Below, piece after piece: positions 4,424 through 38,144 of a DNA stretch of 64,000 bases. The DNA comes from a bacterium (GTDB lineage Bacteria > Electryoneota > RPQS01). The DNA is taken from contig JAHDVH010000001.1 of NCBI GenBank assembly GCA_023382385.1, positions 310,001 to 374,000 on the forward strand. The letters are read 5' to 3'. Below the pieces are notes generated by a model that saw nothing but the letters and a program-made list of their open reading frames with translations, was not told the DNA's origin and searched no databases. Position 1 is the first letter of the stretch. Each line of letters starts with the position of its first letter. A program made the position numbers and the translations under genes.

Positions 4424-5185
4424 CTACAGGGTGGATAGGCAAATTGTGCAAAAGAGAAGACACGACACTATCGTCGTTACATCCGCACGACTTCCCATCG
4501 GTTTAGAGAAGGCTGCACCACTCTCGTAGCCGCGCGACCACAATACTAGCGCCATTGACTGCGAGTTGTTCATTGCGTTTTGCACAGTTGCGAAAAATTC
4601 CTGACGTACGAACGCGAGCTTGTCTGGCAATCTCGCAGGGGATGGAACAAGTCGTAGCCTTCGGGCAAGTGTGCGCTGTTCAGACTGGGCTCGTAACCGT
4701 GGCACCATACCCAAGGCGAGTGCCGCGACGACACCAACTTGTCCGGCGAATCTCGATCCAATGAATCGTCCTAAGCCACGGGATACGGCCTCGGCGTAGG
4801 CAATCGGACTATGATAACTTACGAGAACACTTGTTGTAGTGACAAAGATGAACAGACGAACCATGAAAAAGCCAGTATTCAAAAGATGTTCAGTCCGTGG
4901 TGCCTCATCTGAAGCTGATAACAGCCACAGTCTAAACGCAACATGGAGAAGCGCAGCCACAAGAAAGAGGTATCTCGTCGCCCATAGAGTTTGGCGAATG
5001 ACTTTGAAATCCGCACGTAAAAAGAGAACGGCGAACACAAACAAAGTGGCAAGCATCAGCATCACGCTCCACGTTGTGCACGCGGCCACACATATCAAGA
5101 ACACGAGTGCACAAAAGAGGAGCAGCCCTTCAGGTACCACGACTCTTCGATAAGTAGCTGACGTCTCACCCGTTAGAGTGTTCAT
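4424..5185 (-). CDS. ecfT: ECF transporter transmembrane coupling protein (EcfT/CbiQ family)
   Basis: Predicted inner-membrane coupling subunit that links a substrate-binding S component to the ABC ATPases of an energy-coupling-factor transporter. The 253 residues have an N-terminal group of hydrophobic segments (about 17-37, 38-57, 69-90, 105-125), then the family-type region [16 protein letters not shown] near 157 and a coupling-helix stretch ending [11 protein letters not shown] near 219, resembling the x-R-G motifs that contact the ATPases. Start is ATG overlapping the ndk stop (ATGA). It is followed by truA, as in the ecfA1-ecfA2-ecfT-truA order of Firmicutes, but no EcfA ATPase gene is in the window. 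The family call is from motif resemblance; it could be a divergent CbiQ for another substrate. It is the natural partner for the S component at 37390-37947. Confidence 0.75.
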
Positions 5186-27378: not shown

Positions 27379-28077
27379 CTACTTGGCAGTCGCAATGGTT
27401 CCGTGCTTCTTCACGAGTGCCAATACACGATCAACTTGGTCACCAATAGTAAGATGTGTCGTGTCAATCTCTACTGCGTCGCTTGCCTTTCTCAATGGGC
27501 TATGTTCTCGCGACGAGTCACGTTGATCTCGCGCTACCAGCGCTTGCTCAACTTCTTCGACAGACTGTACTATGCCGCGCGCTGTCAACTCTTTTTGTCG
27601 ACGCAAGGCACGCACGTGGGGGTCTGCGCTCAAGTACACTTTTACACCCGCATCAGGAAACACAACTGTACCAATGTCACGCCCATCCGCAACTATGCCG
27701 CCGCGTTTGCCAATCTCGCGCTGCCATGCGACAAGCTTCTCGCGAATCAAGGCATGTTCGGAGACTGGGCCGACCCAAAGTGAAATCTCAGGTGTCCTGA
27801 TGTCATCAGACACATCCTCGCCATCAAGCAGAAAATGCACACCCTCCGAGTTAGAAACCTGCTCAACAACAGTATGCTCCAGAAGCTCCTGAAGGGCTTT
27901 GCGATCGGTTAGCTCTATACCACTCCGATATATTTTGAGCGCGACAGCTCGATACATAGCCCCAGTGTCCAGGTACATGAACCCAAGTCTCTGAGCAACC
28001 AACTTCGCAGTTGTAGACTTTCCGCTACTTGCCGGGCCGTCAATCGCCACGACGAGTGACTTTGACACATCGTTCAT
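27379..28077 (-). CDS. cmk: Cytidylate kinase
   Basis: Phosphorylates CMP and dCMP using ATP; it recycles the CMP released in phospholipid and LPS synthesis. The 232 residues start with a P-loop IDGPASSGKSTTAK, followed by LDTGAMYRAVALK, the CMP-binding insert, and VADGRDIGTVVFPDA. ATG start overlaps the stop of the preceding 566-residue protein gene by four bases (ATGA). Confidence 0.97.
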   Translation of the reverse strand: MNDVSKSLVVAIDGPASSGKSTTAKLVAQRLGFMYLDTGAMYRAVALKIYRSGIELTDRKALQELLEHTVVEQVSNSEGVHFLLDGEDVSDDIRTPEISLWVGPVSEHALIREKLVAWQREIGKRGGIVADGRDIGTVVFPDAGVKVYLSADPHVRALRRQKELTARGIVQSVEEVEQALVARDQRDSSREHSPLRKASDAVEIDTTHLTIGDQVDRVLALVKKHGTIATAK

Positions 28078-29774
28078 CCTTTGATGCGTCCACCATTCTC
28101 TTCATCAATGAAAATGCGGGTCACGATCTTTCCGACAAAGTGCGTGTCGCTCTCACCTTCGAACCGGCTGTCCCAGGGATACCCTGAGGAAGAATCACTC
28201 CTGCTTGATTCCTCATCAAATTGCAGATGCTTCTCTATGCGACGCTGCCATAATGCCATATTTTCTGGCCTCAAGTCAACCCAGCCCTTCTTCACCCATT
28301 CATTCAGGCTCTCTTGATCAACCGAAAACTCGTTTGAGCCTGCGTAAGGAGGAATCTTAACCTCCGGCCCACGCAAGATTCTCTCACCGTCAGGAAGGAG
28401 TATAGGCACACCAATTGAAAGAATTGTCGCTCGCAAATGCGTATTTGACTTCACGATTTGCAATAACGCTTCAGAGCAGCGATCATGCGATTGCTTACAG
28501 AAGTCGGATACATGCGGATAAGCAAGCCAGATCAAGTATGCCTCGTACAGAAGCTTCGAAAGGTGTGGTGGGCCGAGCATCTCGAATGCAATGCTTCGAT
28601 GGCCCGTTTCTTTCTCAAGTCTGACCATTTCGTCCAGAGCAGCCTTGCGCAGAATTCCCGCTCGGTAAGTGGGTCCCATAACTACGGAGTCAAGTGCTCC
28701 GACCACATCAAAACCACTATTGCCACCTTCGATCTCGGTGACAACCGAATGCGCAATCTCTTCGGGAGTTACGAATTCCATCTGATCCGCGGCAGTGATC
28801 GTGAAGAATTCTTCCGTGGAAAATATCCCGTTCTCACCGGTATCGATGTAGACCGACTTCATATTCTCGCCAAGAGGCGAACCACAAGAATCATCGACGC
28901 GCTTGAATACAGAAGATAACTGATAGGCCGCACCTGGGTCACAGTCGAACAACGGGATTGGTTTTCCACCGCGCCTTATCTCACCATGCGATATCTTCTT
29001 CCAAGCGATTACCGCAGCAGGCTTGATCTCTTTGACGTACGGCGAACCAGGAGTTCTTCCCATGAGGAAAAGCAGCAGGCTGTGCGCACCGGCGATAGAA
29101 GACTTGCTAAGGAGCTGTCCCGAAGGGCGGTCCTCCGAATGTGTGTAAGGGATATTGAGCCCCATTCCACCTGTACCTGTGGTTCCGATCTTCAGGTACA
29201 TTCGGACGTTATTAGTCCGGCATGCTTCGTTTAGCACCTGCAAGTGTCGAATCAGCTGCGGCAAACTAATCGTGCTGGCAAGTCTTTCCACACGCTCTTC
29301 AAGTGAAACGCCGGATGAATCGCCATCTTCGCTATCGAGAGCTTTTCTAACATCATAGTAAGCCGTGTAGGAGTCTTGATATGCCAAACCCGTTGCTGAA
29401 TTTACGCTATCAATGATCAAATCCGGCTTGTGCTTCTCAATGAGCTGATAGAGAAAGAACGAATGCAAGCGCTCACGATTTGGCTTTTCGAAAACTCCAT
29501 CAAGGAACATTCGTCGCAAAGAGACATCACCTAGAATCTGCGCCCGCGCCTTGTCTTTCAGGCTTGCAGGCAGAAAAATGTCGCCCCACTCAGCGATGAT
29601 CTCGGTGCTACCTTTGTGTGGATCCAATTCGCGAACTGCATCAAGCGCCTCTTCTTGGCGCAGCGACAATACTATTAGGTGGGAGGGTTTCTTTTCAAGT
29701 AACTGCTTGCACACGGCAACACCCACAAGGCCCCAACCTCCCAGTACAAGGATTCTGCTTCCCTTAATATTCAT
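28074..29774 (-). CDS. Unassigned Rossmann-fold protein related to extended SDR/epimerases
   Basis: I do not recognise a named family. The 566 residues begin with ILVLGGWGLVGVAV, a GxxGxxG dinucleotide-binding motif, followed by alternating strands and helices up to about residue 270 (PDLIIDSVNSATGLAY, then YLKIGTTGTGGMGLNIPYTHSEDRP). Where extended SDR enzymes have the YxxxK catalytic pair, the sequence reads QLLSK near residue 221, so the Lys is kept but the Tyr is Gln. About 300 further residues follow, including PTYRAGILRKAALDEM and a tail rich in Ser and Asp near 530. No signal or membrane segment is present, so it is cytosolic. It lies between scpB and cmk, where a pseudouridine synthase often lies. 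Function unknown. Confidence 0.7.
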   Translation of the reverse strand: MNIKGSRILVLGGWGLVGVAVCKQLLEKKPSHLIVLSLRQEEALDAVRELDPHKGSTEIIAEWGDIFLPASLKDKARAQILGDVSLRRMFLDGVFEKPNRERLHSFFLYQLIEKHKPDLIIDSVNSATGLAYQDSYTAYYDVRKALDSEDGDSSGVSLEERVERLASTISLPQLIRHLQVLNEACRTNNVRMYLKIGTTGTGGMGLNIPYTHSEDRPSGQLLSKSSIAGAHSLLLFLMGRTPGSPYVKEIKPAAVIAWKKISHGEIRRGGKPIPLFDCDPGAAYQLSSVFKRVDDSCGSPLGENMKSVYIDTGENGIFSTEEFFTITAADQMEFVTPEEIAHSVVTEIEGGNSGFDVVGALDSVVMGPTYRAGILRKAALDEMVRLEKETGHRSIAFEMLGPPHLSKLLYEAYLIWLAYPHVSDFCKQSHDRCSEALLQIVKSNTHLRATILSIGVPILLPDGERILRGPEVKIPPYAGSNEFSVDQESLNEWVKKGWVDLRPENMALWQRRIEKHLQFDEESSRSDSSSGYPWDSRFEGESDTHFVGKIVTRIFIDEENGGRIKG

Positions 29775-32422: not shown

Positions 32423-33694
32423 TTATTTTACATATACAATTCGAATAGGAGTAATGCTGCCTTCTTGGCGCAGCCGTGCAAAATAGGCACCGGCTGAAAC
32501 CTCTTCCCGTCCAGCCACCCCCGGTACCCATTGGACAAAACTTTGCCCTTCAGAAATTGCCAATTCGGCAACGTGCCTGCCCAATGCGTCATACACGTCA
32601 ATAGTTCCACTGCCAGCAATTATTGTCTCGGTCGCAAAAGTGACTGCGCTATTAAAGGGGTTTGGAAAGGCTGTCAGAACACGAAATTCCTTCGGCACCG
32701 GCGCGCCGGGCGGACTCAGATTGCTCGTCTCCCACAACATCGTCAAGGCACCAGGGCCTGCAGACATAGGGTAGCTGGCAATCAATTCTCCTCCACCGCT
32801 CCGGACTTCCAACGTGGCCTCACCAAAACAAGTCACTGCAAAAAGTCCGCCGGGCAGCGCCTCAATGTCTGTAGCGCCGACTCCGCACAAAATCGGATTG
32901 CTCGCGTCGTTTTGTACTTGCCTCGTGGTTGCATTATATCTGAAGACCTGCCCTGAATCACCCCATCCACCTGCCGCGACATATACGTATTCACCATGTG
33001 CGGAAAGAGAAGCAGGCATGCCTCCCACGTCAAGCACCGTTTCTACATTCATAGATGCTAAATTGACTATGTAAATGCTGCCTGCGACATTTGTATAATT
33101 ACCGGTACAGGCGACATGCAACTCACTTCCAATCTTCACCATCCCCTGCGGGTTTACTCCAAGTACTACGGAGTCAATTAACGCGAGATTCTGCACACTA
33201 TAGCGTTTTAGGACACCCTGTCCAAATTCAGGGAAATTTACTCCCGTATTCAGCACGAACAATGTGTCATCGTAGACCACAATTGCCTGCGTACCAACAC
33301 CCGAATGAAGAGTGATCTCGACAGAGCCGCTCGTTAGATCGATCACGGAGAGTGTCCCACTTACACTTGCGGAGACGGCAAGCCTCGCATTAGGCAGAAG
33401 AGCCGCTGCCCATGGGTTGACCGCGCCCGACACCGAGATTTCCCGCAACGTGTGTAAAGTTCGCCGATCGATTTCCTGAACGGTACCATACCCAGAATTG
33501 ACGACGAACACGCTTGCTTCAGACACCACGACATCATTAGGGATGTTACCCAAGGTCACCGCCTGCGCCACATGCTGACCAGTTTGATAGTTAACCCACC
33601 CCAGACTCTCGTCCAAACCGTTCACAACGTAAAAGATTTGGGCAAAGGCTATCATCTGGTGGAGCACAAGTAATAGCATTGAAGCGCGAATCAT
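32423..33694 (-). CDS. Secreted YncE/BtuG-like beta-propeller with C-terminal sorting domain
   Basis: From the ATG at 33694 it is 423 residues: signal peptide (MIRASMLLLVLHQMIAFAQ), a beta-propeller of about seven blades (about 20-330), and a C-terminal domain of the type IX secretion/NPFN kind (AFPNPFNSAVTF, then IDVYDALGRHVAEL and SAGAYFARLRQ). Blades repeat a pattern like IPNDVVVSEASVFVVNSGYGTVQEID and NPQGMVKIGSELHVACTGN. It is the last gene of the cobalamin-riboswitch operon and directly follows the BtuB-like receptor. In Bacteroides, BtuG is a beta-propeller on BtuB that captures B12; this protein could do the same, but it has a sorting domain rather than a lipobox. That role is inferred. 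An upstream start at 33721 would add nine residues and overlap the receptor gene. Confidence 0.8.
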   Translation of the reverse strand: MIRASMLLLVLHQMIAFAQIFYVVNGLDESLGWVNYQTGQHVAQAVTLGNIPNDVVVSEASVFVVNSGYGTVQEIDRRTLHTLREISVSGAVNPWAAALLPNARLAVSASVSGTLSVIDLTSGSVEITLHSGVGTQAIVVYDDTLFVLNTGVNFPEFGQGVLKRYSVQNLALIDSVVLGVNPQGMVKIGSELHVACTGNYTNVAGSIYIVNLASMNVETVLDVGGMPASLSAHGEYVYVAAGGWGDSGQVFRYNATTRQVQNDASNPILCGVGATDIEALPGGLFAVTCFGEATLEVRSGGGELIASYPMSAGPGALTMLWETSNLSPPGAPVPKEFRVLTAFPNPFNSAVTFATETIIAGSGTIDVYDALGRHVAELAISEGQSFVQWVPGVAGREEVSAGAYFARLRQEGSITPIRIVYVK

Positions 33695-33698
33695 GGTC

Positions 33699-35621
33699 TC
33701 ACATCCATTTAAGGTTGACATACATCCAGAATTGCCTCAGCGGCATCGGAGCGTGACGTACAACACGATAGTCTACGTCAAAGACATTTTCACAACGCAC
33801 GCCAACTTCAATCGCAGTACTTCCCAATGAAAAACACCTTGCGACGTCAGTGTTCACTAAGGTGTACTCCGGCAACCATTTGGAATTTGTCTCCAAAACA
33901 GCTTGCTTATCAGACCAGAAAGTACTAATTGTTCCGTGAAAACCACCAGACTGCGCAGTCAAATTCCCACGAAAAGTCCTTGCTGGGCGATATATTAGAT
34001 ACTTCCCATCTGTAAGCCGATCGCCACTCCGATCTCTGGCCTCCAGCCACTCCATTGACGAACCAACGCTGACAATTCTGGGGACTACTACTTGTGAGAT
34101 TGAGACTGCAAAAGAAGCAAGTGTTGCACTCTTCAGGTTTTGCGGCGTCCAGCGACCATCAAAAGTCTGCCGCCAGTAAATCAAATCGCGGACATGGCTG
34201 TCTGACAGCACTACGTCCAAAGTTGACTTGAATCGAGAATTTGTCGAGAGGGTGCCGAAAGTCTGAAACTGTGTAGAGGATTCCGCCCTAAGGTCCGGAT
34301 TACCTTGCGCCAGGAGTTCATCGTTCCAGAAAAGCGAATAGAAACTTGGGGCATGATATGACATGGAACCACGAAGTCCAACCGACGCATTGACAATGGT
34401 CCGAAAGTCATATGCTACTTCTCCAAAAGGTAATGATTGCAACTTAGAGTCGCCGAATCGCTCCACGTTTAGGCCTGCATCTACACTAAAGCTTTGATTC
34501 TTTCGAATTGATACTGTCTTTCCAATACCTCCCGTAACACGCCAGCGCAGACGATCAGCCTGGTCGTCTGCCAATATGCCGCTTTCCAGGCTCTCGCGTT
34601 CGCCCTCGACTCTTACACAAACTTGGATCCCGCTTGACATTCCTACCCAGCTTGAAGAGATTGCTGACCTTCTCGCATATTCACGTGAAGTCTTGAGAAA
34701 ACTATATGGATCAGGGTCGGAATACTCCTTTCTTTGTGTCTGTTGCGAGAGCTTCGTGGTGATTGTGCCCTTAGGCGTTGGAAGCTCTAAGTCAAAGAGA
34801 AAGGAGCGATAGGACTCCACTTGACTTGCCATCGGAGTAGGTCGCGGAGCTAAGTAACCCGGGAGGCCGAATTCACCTTCCTCGAGCCACAAGGTCGATG
34901 TCAGTTTCACTCTGCCCACGAAGTTCTCGACTTTACCAAAGAATCGGTCTCTGCTGGTTGCATTGTTCTGACGCCTGAACTCCTGACCAAGATTCTGCGT
35001 GAAAGGACCATTACCATCATACTCAGTTACACGAAATCTATAGCGCCCATTGCCCTGTGCGCGTGAGACTCCGGTGACTATTCTCAAGCTTTGCCCGATC
35101 CACTCGTGCCTCGCGGACAACTCACCAAAGGTACCGGTGCCCTCCAACCGCACCGCGGCGGACTTCTGCTTCACTGTCGAAGTCCGAATCGAGATTACGC
35201 CTCCAATCGCTTCAGCTCCAAAACCACTGCCGCCTCTCACAATCTCTATTGACTCAATCCAGTCGACTGGAATGCGCGCCAAGTCTGTTTCACCGCTTCC
35301 AATATCGTCAATTCGAACACCATCAAGCAAGACCAAAACCTGATTAACATTTGAGCCGCCAATTCTCGCGAACTGTTTTCCGCCGGAAGCAGCGTCATCT
35401 CGCAATGTCACGCCTGGCAACTGCTGCAGAAACTCGGCAGCATTCCGCGCTCTGCTCTGCTCGATGTCCTCCTTCTTATATGAGCGAATTACTGCATTAT
35501 CCGAGGCATAGATTATCACCTCCGGCAATGTAGTGTGCAGGGAGTTTGACTCCGTGGCAGACGACAGAGATCCTAACAGTGAGAATCCAAGGGCAATATA
35601 CTTTAGAGAGCGAGTGTCCAT
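33699..35621 (-). CDS. btuB: TonB-dependent outer-membrane receptor, BtuB-like (predicted cobalamin)
   Basis: The 640 residues comprise a signal peptide (to about residue 22), a TonB-box-like PEVIIYAS near 34, a complete plug domain (about 45-150: AAEFLQQLPGVTLRDDAASGGKQFARIGGSNVNQVLVLLDGVRIDD, and RGGSGFGAEAIGGVISIRT), and a barrel ending KWM after an aromatic C-terminal strand pattern (RQFWMYVNLKWM). Size is close to E. coli BtuB (614). The cobalamin riboswitch upstream and the downstream BtuG-like propeller point to B12 as ligand; ligand choice is not proved by residues alone. ATG start; overlaps the previous barrel gene by 19 bases. Confidence 0.88.
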   Translation of the reverse strand: MDTRSLKYIALGFSLLGSLSSATESNSLHTTLPEVIIYASDNAVIRSYKKEDIEQSRARNAAEFLQQLPGVTLRDDAASGGKQFARIGGSNVNQVLVLLDGVRIDDIGSGETDLARIPVDWIESIEIVRGGSGFGAEAIGGVISIRTSTVKQKSAAVRLEGTGTFGELSARHEWIGQSLRIVTGVSRAQGNGRYRFRVTEYDGNGPFTQNLGQEFRRQNNATSRDRFFGKVENFVGRVKLTSTLWLEEGEFGLPGYLAPRPTPMASQVESYRSFLFDLELPTPKGTITTKLSQQTQRKEYSDPDPYSFLKTSREYARRSAISSSWVGMSSGIQVCVRVEGERESLESGILADDQADRLRWRVTGGIGKTVSIRKNQSFSVDAGLNVERFGDSKLQSLPFGEVAYDFRTIVNASVGLRGSMSYHAPSFYSLFWNDELLAQGNPDLRAESSTQFQTFGTLSTNSRFKSTLDVVLSDSHVRDLIYWRQTFDGRWTPQNLKSATLASFAVSISQVVVPRIVSVGSSMEWLEARDRSGDRLTDGKYLIYRPARTFRGNLTAQSGGFHGTISTFWSDKQAVLETNSKWLPEYTLVNTDVARCFSLGSTAIEVGVRCENVFDVDYRVVRHAPMPLRQFWMYVNLKWM

Positions 35622-37390
35622 CGAAGACCAAAGTACTCTTCCTTCCGAATCATCATGTAGCCAGGCAAGTACTCATAGTGTTGCCCAGTCAGGTTTTCTA
35701 CTCCCCAAATGAGAGTCACGCCTTCAATAGTTCCTTCAATTCTGAAGTGCACGAGATGTGCGGGTCCGATCACCTCGCTACGCAAGTCCGAAGTCGCCCG
35801 TCGCCGCCCGATGTGCTCGTAGGCAGCGTATGATTCTATATGCAATTGCGACTTGAAGAACGTGCGAGAGAACACAAGACGCGAAAAAGAACGCGTGTCA
35901 AGCGCGCGGGATTTCTCATCAGCATCGACAACTATCTCACCAAGTGATTGGAATCTTACATGCTTAGTGATTCGAATCTCGGAGCTACCAGCCGGACCTT
36001 CAAACCGATTGCTTTGGCTTTGGCCGTCCAAATATAGTGTATCGCTTCGCTGGACAAAACCGTAGCCGTTTGATGTCGCAAACCTCCAGCCCAAGCGTAA
36101 TCTTCCCCTTTTTGACGTCCAATCAAGCCCTGCTTCTGCAAAGTCAAGAGCCGTTTCGTAGCCCCTATTTGCCTCGGACTGCGGGAGCACTCCACCAAAA
36201 AATCCACTCTTGGCAAAGCCGTCGTCTACGAGTAATCCTCTTTCTTCAATTCTAAACTGTGCGATCTGCCAGTATGTCGGTACAGACTTCCTGCCTAACA
36301 AGCCTAAACCATAGATTGCGAAATTCAGGAATCGGGGCGTAAGAATCTCCGTTGCGGCCGAGAGATCATCCTGGTTGTTATCATGCTTGTCACTTGCACG
36401 ATTGTTCAGCTTTTTGCGATAGAGTATGCGCGCCTTAAGGCTTCCAACTGCTGATTGTATTGATCCACGACCTTGTAGAGATACATCCTCCTCTACTAAT
36501 GCACTTTCTCCAGGAAAACTGAAATTGGCGCGTTCGAAGGCAAGTCTGAGGCCAACGTCCGAACACCCCATAACTTTGGATGCATCAACGAAGCCATAGA
36601 AATATTGTTCCCGCAAACCGAAGTACTTGTCTCTTTCCTCCCTGTCTTGCCTCAAATGCGCACCGAATTCAATACTGCTGCCATCGCGAATGCCTCGCAT
36701 TCTGACAGTCCCATGCTCACGCTCGCAATAGATATTCGGTCGGACTACCTGATTCGGAGCAGGCCTTAACACCTGCGGGGACTGAGCTTCCGCGTTAGAT
36801 CCGCCGTACTCAATCGTTGCGTTCCAGTTCGAATTCAGCCTATAGTTCAACTCCCCGCGGAGTTTGTACGACTTTGACTTGCTGATCCCCTCGCGCAGGC
36901 CATTGTACCAGAACAATCTCCCTCTCCCCTCAGCAGAGAATCGTGGCGAGAAGCTCTGGGCATGCGCAAAATCAACTCTTCCAAATCCATAGTAGCCCTC
37001 CCTGACTAGTAACTCAGTTCGCGGAGAGTCGGCAGGCATGCTCCTTCCTGTGAGCTTCAATGTGCCCAGTGGATCCAGCCCATCAACAGCGAATGCAACA
37101 GACTCCAATTCTTCAGGAGAATCCAGATTAGACTCGTACAGACCGTCACTGAAACGATGCCAGGGTATGCCATCTCGTTCAACTCCAATGTACCATGGAT
37201 TGAATCCCCACGGTCTGAATACTACGGGCGCCCCAGCGACACCGTAGTCCATCGGAAACATACCTGGAAGTCTTCGCATCCAGTCACTCATATCTTCGTA
37301 CGCATACGAACGCCATGCATCCATAGTCATGACCTGTGAATACAAAGGCACGGAAACGACAAACAAAACGAATATGCGTAAGAATCTCAT
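35603..37390 (-). CDS. TonB-receptor-like outer-membrane barrel with shortened plug
   Basis: The 595 residues start with a signal peptide (MRFLRIFVLFVVSVPLYSQ). A plug-like part (about 20-115) follows: SDWMRRLPGMFPMDYGVAGAPVVFRPWGFNPW, then VERDGIPWH and DSPEELESVAFAVDG, echoing receptor plugs (LPGV, G-x-DGxP, ESVEV) but shorter. No clear TonB box is found between the signal and the plug. The rest has alternating aromatic and charged beta strands, ending EEYFGLRWTLAL, as in outer-membrane barrels. It shares one base with the ECF S gene stop (TAATG) and precedes the BtuB-like gene in the riboswitch operon. It may be an accessory or diverged receptor for cobalamin or its precursors; no direct evidence of ligand. 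Confidence 0.7.
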   Translation of the reverse strand: MRFLRIFVLFVVSVPLYSQVMTMDAWRSYAYEDMSDWMRRLPGMFPMDYGVAGAPVVFRPWGFNPWYIGVERDGIPWHRFSDGLYESNLDSPEELESVAFAVDGLDPLGTLKLTGRSMPADSPRTELLVREGYYGFGRVDFAHAQSFSPRFSAEGRGRLFWYNGLREGISKSKSYKLRGELNYRLNSNWNATIEYGGSNAEAQSPQVLRPAPNQVVRPNIYCEREHGTVRMRGIRDGSSIEFGAHLRQDREERDKYFGLREQYFYGFVDASKVMGCSDVGLRLAFERANFSFPGESALVEEDVSLQGRGSIQSAVGSLKARILYRKKLNNRASDKHDNNQDDLSAATEILTPRFLNFAIYGLGLLGRKSVPTYWQIAQFRIEERGLLVDDGFAKSGFFGGVLPQSEANRGYETALDFAEAGLDWTSKRGRLRLGWRFATSNGYGFVQRSDTLYLDGQSQSNRFEGPAGSSEIRITKHVRFQSLGEIVVDADEKSRALDTRSFSRLVFSRTFFKSQLHIESYAAYEHIGRRRATSDLRSEVIGPAHLVHFRIEGTIEGVTLIWGVENLTGQHYEYLPGYMMIRKEEYFGLRWTLAL

Positions 37391-37947
37391 TAAAGCGGTT
37401 GCTCAATTAGTTTTACCATCTTGGGCAGCAGAGGCACAACAATCAAGAGAAACACGAGCGCGTTTGACACCAAATGAATCAATGCAAAAGGTGCGGCTAA
37501 GCCTAAGGTAACAAGAGTCTGGTCAATAGAAAACCCGGCCGCCACTGGGAAGGCCAGGTTAGTAAGAGTATCGAACCAAATCGTTGCTACAACCCCAAGT
37601 ACAGTGACGACGATTGCTCGATATGTAATTGAGCCAGCAAATGCCACTTTTCGTGCCAAGGCTCCAACGGCACCCGCGCCCGCCATTCCAGTGACTTGCG
37701 CTACCAGCGTCAAGCCAAAAGAACTGCCCATGGGGTGAAAGCCTGCAAACAGAGTTTCGATCAGAACACTACACAAAACCCCCGCGCCCAGTCCGAGCAG
37801 GTAACCCGCGCAAAAACATGTCGCGGTCACAAGCTCCACATTGGGAACAGGGGCCAAAAGATATCCTAACGCAAGACCGACTGCCACCAGAGCCGAGGCT
37901 CGAGTCAACATCAACGGCGGACTCGAAAAACCGCCAGTATCACTCAT
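37390..37947 (-). CDS. ECF transporter S component, predicted cobalamin-specific
   Basis: Inner-membrane substrate-binding protein of an energy-coupling-factor transporter. The 185 residues contain about six hydrophobic helices (about 12-30, 35-60, 62-88, 92-115, 120-145, 150-180). PVPNVELVTATCFCAGYLLGLGAG near 33 and FHPMGSSFGLTLVAQVTGMAGAG near 70 match S components that sit under cobalamin riboswitches. It is the first gene after the riboswitch, with a GAGGAG ribosome site (37959-37954) built into a hairpin. It needs EcfT (candidate at 4424-5185) and EcfA ATPases (not in the window). Cobalamin rather than cobalt or a precursor is inferred from the riboswitch and the receptor genes. Confidence 0.78.
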   Translation of the reverse strand: MSDTGGFSSPPLMLTRASALVAVGLALGYLLAPVPNVELVTATCFCAGYLLGLGAGVLCSVLIETLFAGFHPMGSSFGLTLVAQVTGMAGAGAVGALARKVAFAGSITYRAIVVTVLGVVATIWFDTLTNLAFPVAAGFSIDQTLVTLGLAAPFALIHLVSNALVFLLIVVPLLPKMVKLIEQPL

Positions 37948-37953
37948 TCGATT

Positions 37954-37974
37954 CTCCTCGCAAATTGCGAAGAG
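37954..37974 (-). promoter_or_regulatory. Shine-Dalgarno-sequestering hairpin (riboswitch expression platform)
   Basis: On the minus strand CTCTTCGCA (37974-37966) and TGCGAGGAG (37962-37954) pair over all nine positions (one G-U) around a three-base loop. The 3' arm contains the GAGGAG ribosome site of the ECF S gene, seven bases before its ATG. This would block translation when formed, so the riboswitch probably acts on translation start rather than by termination; no U-run terminator is seen here. Confidence 0.7.
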
Positions 37975-38009
37975 CCTCCACCAGTTTCCTTGTCTCCGAA
38001 GGTTGGTGA

Positions 38010-38122
38010 AAGCCGCAGGCAGGTCTCCTGGCTAAGAGTAAGTCACTCTATCACAGTTGCGGGACAGCGACGGGTTCACACCGTCTTCCCTATTCTTCCG
38101 CAGTTTGCGGACACCTGCAGCC
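38010..38122 (-). promoter_or_regulatory. Cobalamin riboswitch
   Basis: On the minus strand the conserved elements appear in order: GCAGGTGTCC (5' P1 strand, 38118-38109), GGGAAGACGGTGTGAA, the core CGTCGCTGTCCCGC then AACTGTGA, and the B12 box AGCCAGGAGACCTGCC (about 38034-38019). The P1 helix forms between GCAGGT (38118-38113) and ACCTGC (38024-38019). The arm with GCCACTG seen in longer versions is absent, as in compact class II aptamers. It lies between rplS and the ECF S gene; a second hairpin at 37979-38008 and the ribosome-site hairpin at 37954-37974 follow. Confidence 0.93.
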
Positions 38123-38144
38123 TAATTCCTGAAGCGAGAGCGTA

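Follow-up and report, generated by a model that had tools for sequence, protein, structure and literature searches.

The window (the whole 64,000-nucleotide stretch that was analysed, from contig JAHDVH010000001.1) belongs to an uncultured KSB1/Calditrichota-like bacterium with an outer membrane. On its minus strand a cobalamin riboswitch precedes four tightly packed genes (Table 1). The first, for an ECF S component, overlaps by one base the gene for an outer-membrane barrel (barrel 2), which overlaps by 19 bases that for a BtuB-like receptor; after a gap of four bases comes the ATG, at 33694, of a gene for a secreted beta-propeller. The earlier note had placed these four genes in this order behind one riboswitch, and this placement held for all of them. 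The operon fills the slot between rplS and trpS, starting about a dozen bases past the rplS stop codon and ending about 110 bases before trpS, within a conserved housekeeping cluster (ffh-rpsP-rimM-trmD-rplS on one side, trpS-scpA-scpB on the other).

Table 1. Features of the operon and the EcfT gene in the window
Feature	Position	Strand	Basis
Cobalamin riboswitch aptamer (RF00174)	38001..38133	-	Full model 1-189; starts right after rplS stop codon
Expression-platform hairpin, CTCTTCGCA-ATT-TGCGAGGAG	37954..37974	-	Shine-Dalgarno (GAGGAG) in 3' arm
ECF S component, CbrT-like, predicted corrinoid-binding subunit	37390..37947	-	AF2, Foldseek, PDB profile search
Barrel 2, outer-membrane barrel with plug, BtuB-like fold	35603..37390	-	AF2, Foldseek, PDB profile
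BtuB-like TonB-dependent receptor	33699..35621	-	TIGR01779 best NCBIfam model; BtuB1 profile match
Secreted beta-propeller, BtuG1-like, C-terminal T9SS-type sorting domain	32423..33694	-	phmmer, profile search, TIGR04183
EcfT transmembrane coupling subunit, very divergent	4424..5185	-	Between ndk and truA; tblastn, BLASTP, synteny

The order riboswitch-S-barrel 2-BtuB-propeller-trpS is kept in the window's family wherever contigs are long enough. Riboswitch, S component and barrel 2 are present in all ten other family genomes, and the BtuB-like gene in all eight with a long enough contig. In all six whose contig extends further, the propeller gene comes next, with trpS behind it. Given this conservation, the arrangement is not due to chance. 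The S component itself was found in 13 of 13 class genomes. Beyond the operon, the window also encodes (28074-29774) a conserved 566-residue protein that starts with a Rossmann-type nucleotide-binding motif; its gene is flanked by scpB and cmk in every relative with a contig extending that far.

Riboswitch and expression platform

The aptamer scores 91.9 bits (E 1.7e-21), where the gathering score is 31.5. It is the sole RF00174 match in a search of the whole 2.9-Mb, 98%-complete genome. The earlier note had named a btuCDF locus elsewhere in the genome, with its own riboswitch, as something that would refute its reading; this search found no second cobalamin riboswitch. A second riboswitch was also suspected in relatives, in a 300-base gap before the BtuB-like gene, and was rejected as there is no Rfam match there. 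The gap corresponds to an N-terminal extension of BtuB, which in the one case checked is CarboxypepD-like, below the cut-off.

Between the aptamer and the S start codon, every family genome (11 of 11) has a hairpin. Its stem shows paired changes from genome to genome (for example TCTTCGC/GCGAAGA, TTTCCGC/GCGGAAA and CTCTCCG/CGGAGAG), and its 3' arm contains the Shine-Dalgarno sequence, six bases ahead of the S-gene ATG. Since the hairpin sequesters this site and no U-run follows it, control is predicted to be translational; such a hairpin is what a translational switch would be expected to show. Control at this level would suit an operon with trpS as its downstream neighbor, a gene that termination would have to spare.

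Outer-membrane receptors and propeller

The earlier note proposed a BtuB-like receptor next to a BtuG-like propeller, and family profiles bear this out, matching the BtuB1-BtuG1 pair of Bacteroides. The receptor scores 102 bits with TIGR01779, under the equivalog cut-off of 599.7 bits, although this is nonetheless its best NCBIfam model; the best PDB match of its family profile is Bacteroides BtuB1 (E 4.5e-29, near full length). For the propeller, the best phmmer matches are YncE/BtuG1 entries (E 1e-5 to 8e-5), and the family profile finds BtuG1 (E 2.5e-11), the best-matching BtuG, as well as BtuG2 and BtuG3. An archaeal S-layer YVTN propeller (1l0q) outscores BtuG1 in the same profile search, so that the BtuG label rests on sequence together with adjacency to BtuB, which is conserved.

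As in Bacteroides, then, a riboswitch-controlled locus has a BtuB-type receptor adjoining a surface beta-propeller (PMC10404256, PMC6143338). Bacteroides BtuG is, however, a lipoprotein, whereas the aligned signal peptides of the propellers studied here have no lipobox cysteine; the C-terminal tail instead matches the T9SS-type sorting domain TIGR04183 (27.4 bits, above cut-off).

What is the other barrel? The earlier note called it TonB-receptor-like. That description stands and can be refined: the protein is itself BtuB-like, and is part of an older core with the S component, with which it co-occurs everywhere we looked. Its AF2 model, of medium confidence (pLDDT 71.5, pTM 0.75), has BtuB:TonB (2gsk) as top Foldseek match (E 7.8e-20, TM 0.78); by profile the best PDB match is BtuB1 (8blw_A, E 7e-5), and there is a weak match to the Plug domain.

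The S component

The AF2 model of the S component has six helices (pLDDT 88.7), and its top Foldseek matches are S components (BioY, RibU, ThiT, FolT; probability about 1.0), which identifies the fold but singles out no substrate. PF12822 is recognized in 11 of the 13 family members. When the family profile was run against the PDB, the sole S component matched was chain A of 6FNP, that is, CbrT, the vitamin B12 S component of the Lactobacillus delbrueckii ECF-CbrT transporter (PMC5997447). The E-value was 0.005 with 13 sequences and 0.00095 with 12 more diverse ones, modest to weak in absolute terms. As a control we used another S-component family from the class, encoded upstream of nuoABC, whose profile matched no S component in the PDB. 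The PDB matches of the operon's S family included neither a folate S component nor BtuM, although the folate-family model TIGR04518 gives weak matches (E 0.0023) to five of 12 S proteins. The earlier assignment of this gene to the ECF S components is upheld by the fold. For B12 as the substrate, the CbrT profile match speaks in favor and the TIGR04518 match against. From the CbrT match and the riboswitch context we infer that the substrate is probably B12.

The ECF energizing module

The earlier note had suggested a genome search for ecfA. EcfA1 and EcfA2 were both found, and EcfT as well. The EcfT gene, in an ndk-ecfT-truA slot common to relatives and about 36 kb away, is recovered by tblastn with other EcfTs of the class (E 6e-13 to 3e-9), and its product shares 30% identity over 227 residues (BLASTP) with a PF02361-positive EcfT (G009); the XRX coupling arginines, R178 and R218, are invariant. 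The EcfA1-EcfA2 genes (G000:C1:477817-479128; L099:2318-3629) come after kdtA, a slot kept in nearly all class genomes. Their products carry Walker motifs and have ECF_ATPase_1 and ECF_ATPase_2 as best NCBIfam models. The ECF subunits are therefore scattered, the ndk-truA and kdtA loci being unlinked to the S operon.

A Pfam CbiQ search of the window's genome gave no match, the divergent EcfT being missed. The EcfT of the window's genus (window 4424-5185; L150:6513-7271) escapes this model, and annotation pipelines would call such a genome ECF-less. A solitary, BtuM-like S component was indeed first inferred from the missing CbiQ match, and was dropped once synteny revealed EcfT in the window.

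Could the S component nevertheless work alone, letting B12 pass by toppling and be trapped by metabolism, with no ECF module involved? BtuM, a known B12 S-like protein of Gram-negative bacteria, acts without one (PMC6072759), and EcfT is too divergent for Pfam. Against this, orthologs of EcfT, EcfA1 and EcfA2 are retained here and in relatives although no other S component was found in the window's genome, so something must keep them. Moreover, the loop that joins helices 3 and 4 (L3), where BtuM has its essential Cys80, reads F-[HN]-P-[MLT]-G-S-S in the S family, with no conserved cysteine, and the profile search of the PDB gave no sequence match to BtuM. We therefore consider solo transport improbable.

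The ATPases have peculiarities of their own. In none of the genomes inspected (including the orthologs L066-L074, L100 and L101) does EcfA1 have the H-loop histidine where it normally stands, and the EcfA2 signature is degenerate in the window's family, so that hydrolysis is probably confined to one ATP site of the pair.

Nine class genomes (L113, L114, L115, L117, L118, L119, L120, L122, L129) encode a second S component immediately ahead of nuoABC. It was not found in G000 (the window's genome), G004 or G006, the last of these only 80% complete. In these genomes the ECF module has diverged: identity of EcfT to the sister family is 18.5% in genomes without the second S component versus 27.9% in those with it (the G006 EcfT not included), and that of EcfA1 is 33% versus 41%; the S protein of the operon shows no such difference (48.2% versus 48.4%). 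By these comparisons the module, freed from having two partners, likely now serves one S component.

An older S-barrel 2 pair, and the search for BtuC

In the sister family (G001, G002) the S component and barrel 2 stand alone between rplS and trpS, with no riboswitch, BtuB or propeller adjoining, and more distant relatives (L110-L112, of which two carry the label Calditrichaeota) have rplS-S-barrel 2, again without riboswitch, BtuB or propeller alongside. The only cobalamin riboswitch of the sister family sits elsewhere, away from this pair, before a lone receptor (L028, L031, L055, L056) that has a CarboxypepD-like N-terminal domain and a B12 receptor as best NCBIfam model. Because of this distribution we take S and barrel 2 to be the older pair, which BtuB and the propeller would have joined later, in one family.

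The same distribution means that the S component could be older and have served another ligand. The pair might carry some other nutrient (folate, for example, or another cofactor) and have been captured later by a B12-regulated unit, with B12 itself using an unrecognized inner-membrane route; the weak folate-family match points the same way. Several findings weigh against this. The S gene is the first behind the only cobalamin riboswitch, throughout the family; barrel 2 is BtuB-like by fold as well as by profile; and the one solved S component that the profile matches is CbrT, not a folate protein. Finally, no BtuC (FecCD) was detected in any of the 13 class genomes, despite the riboswitch-controlled BtuB having been kept. 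Other class genomes have at most weak FecCD matches, and the single borderline match in the window's genome, considered as a BtuC candidate, proved to be a zinc-type permease (AztB/ZnuB) adjoining its own ATPase. Apart from this permease nothing in the genome reaches the cut-off, which agrees with the absence of BtuCDF that the earlier note had expected. We give a pair for another nutrient only a small chance. That S-barrel 2 and BtuB-propeller merely both fill the rplS-trpS gap, with no functional coupling, is very unlikely indeed: the operon does lie embedded in a conserved housekeeping cluster, but its genes overlap behind a single leader, and riboswitch and hairpin immediately precede the S gene in every family genome.

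A predicted route for vitamin B12

These results make it probable that the operon serves the uptake of corrinoids (vitamin B12), and that in it capture of the BtuB/BtuG type is combined with a dedicated CbrT-like ECF transporter replacing BtuCDF. The hybrid of a BtuB/BtuG outer route with an ECF inner route proposed in the earlier note is supported by the ECF subunits present, the lack of a BtuC and the CbrT profile match. The unusual divergence of EcfT and EcfA in the window's genus weighs on the other side. The genome also encodes users of the vitamin, namely a MetH-type protein and a methylmalonyl-CoA mutase C-terminal domain.

We predict that the propeller captures B12 at the cell surface and that the BtuB-like receptor, probably with the help of the second BtuB-like barrel, brings it into the periplasm with TonB. 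There the S component would bind B12 and dock onto the scattered ECF module (EcfT plus EcfA1-EcfA2), which, if the subunits assemble in this way, would spend ATP to move the vitamin to the cytoplasm in place of BtuCDF. As for the direction of switching, plentiful B12 would make the riboswitch let the hairpin mask the S gene's ribosome-binding site, leading to less translation of the operon. A fuller version of this prediction seems to us about evenly balanced between right and wrong: a class-wide BtuB/BtuG outer apparatus, and a second, dedicated BtuB-like receptor that partners the S component, would feed the ECF transporter, and in the window's genus the other S component would have been lost, leaving the module as a pump for B12 alone whose ATPase pair is one-sided.

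Comparison with known systems

The closest likeness at the inner membrane is to ECF-CbrT of L. delbrueckii (PDB 6FNP), the only PDB S component matched, which also works with an unlinked, shared-type ECF module and imports B12 at the expense of ATP, as proposed here (PMC5997447). Its host is a Gram-positive without an outer membrane, whereas the present host has one; the module there is shared among eight predicted S components, whereas one was found here; and the similarity in sequence is modest. Proteobacteria with BtuB and BtuM likewise take up B12 as Gram-negatives by means of an S-fold protein that takes the place of BtuCDF at the inner membrane (PMC6072759). BtuM has no ECF module and needs its conserved L3 cysteine; the S component studied here has the module, lacks the cysteine and is unrelated in sequence. 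With the E. coli BtuB-BtuCDF system the locus shares a TonB-dependent outer-membrane BtuB and a cobalamin riboswitch with sequestration of the ribosome-binding site, but an ECF S component is found here instead of BtuC.

Each part is thus of a known kind. We found no description of a layout joining BtuB to an ECF route for B12 in the literature searched, and as far as that search goes the combination, and its predicted use in place of BtuCDF, appear to be new. BtuG homologs have been reported only from Bacteroidetes (PMC6143338), and the propeller described here would extend BtuG-like proteins beyond that phylum. Among Gram-negative B12 auxotrophs, many possess BtuB yet lack BtuCDF, their inner-membrane step being unknown (PMC6072759); the locus points to an ECF transporter as filling that missing step. 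It would unite two systems that are each known from a different kind of bacterium, and illustrates a path by which a shared ECF module may end up serving a single vitamin.
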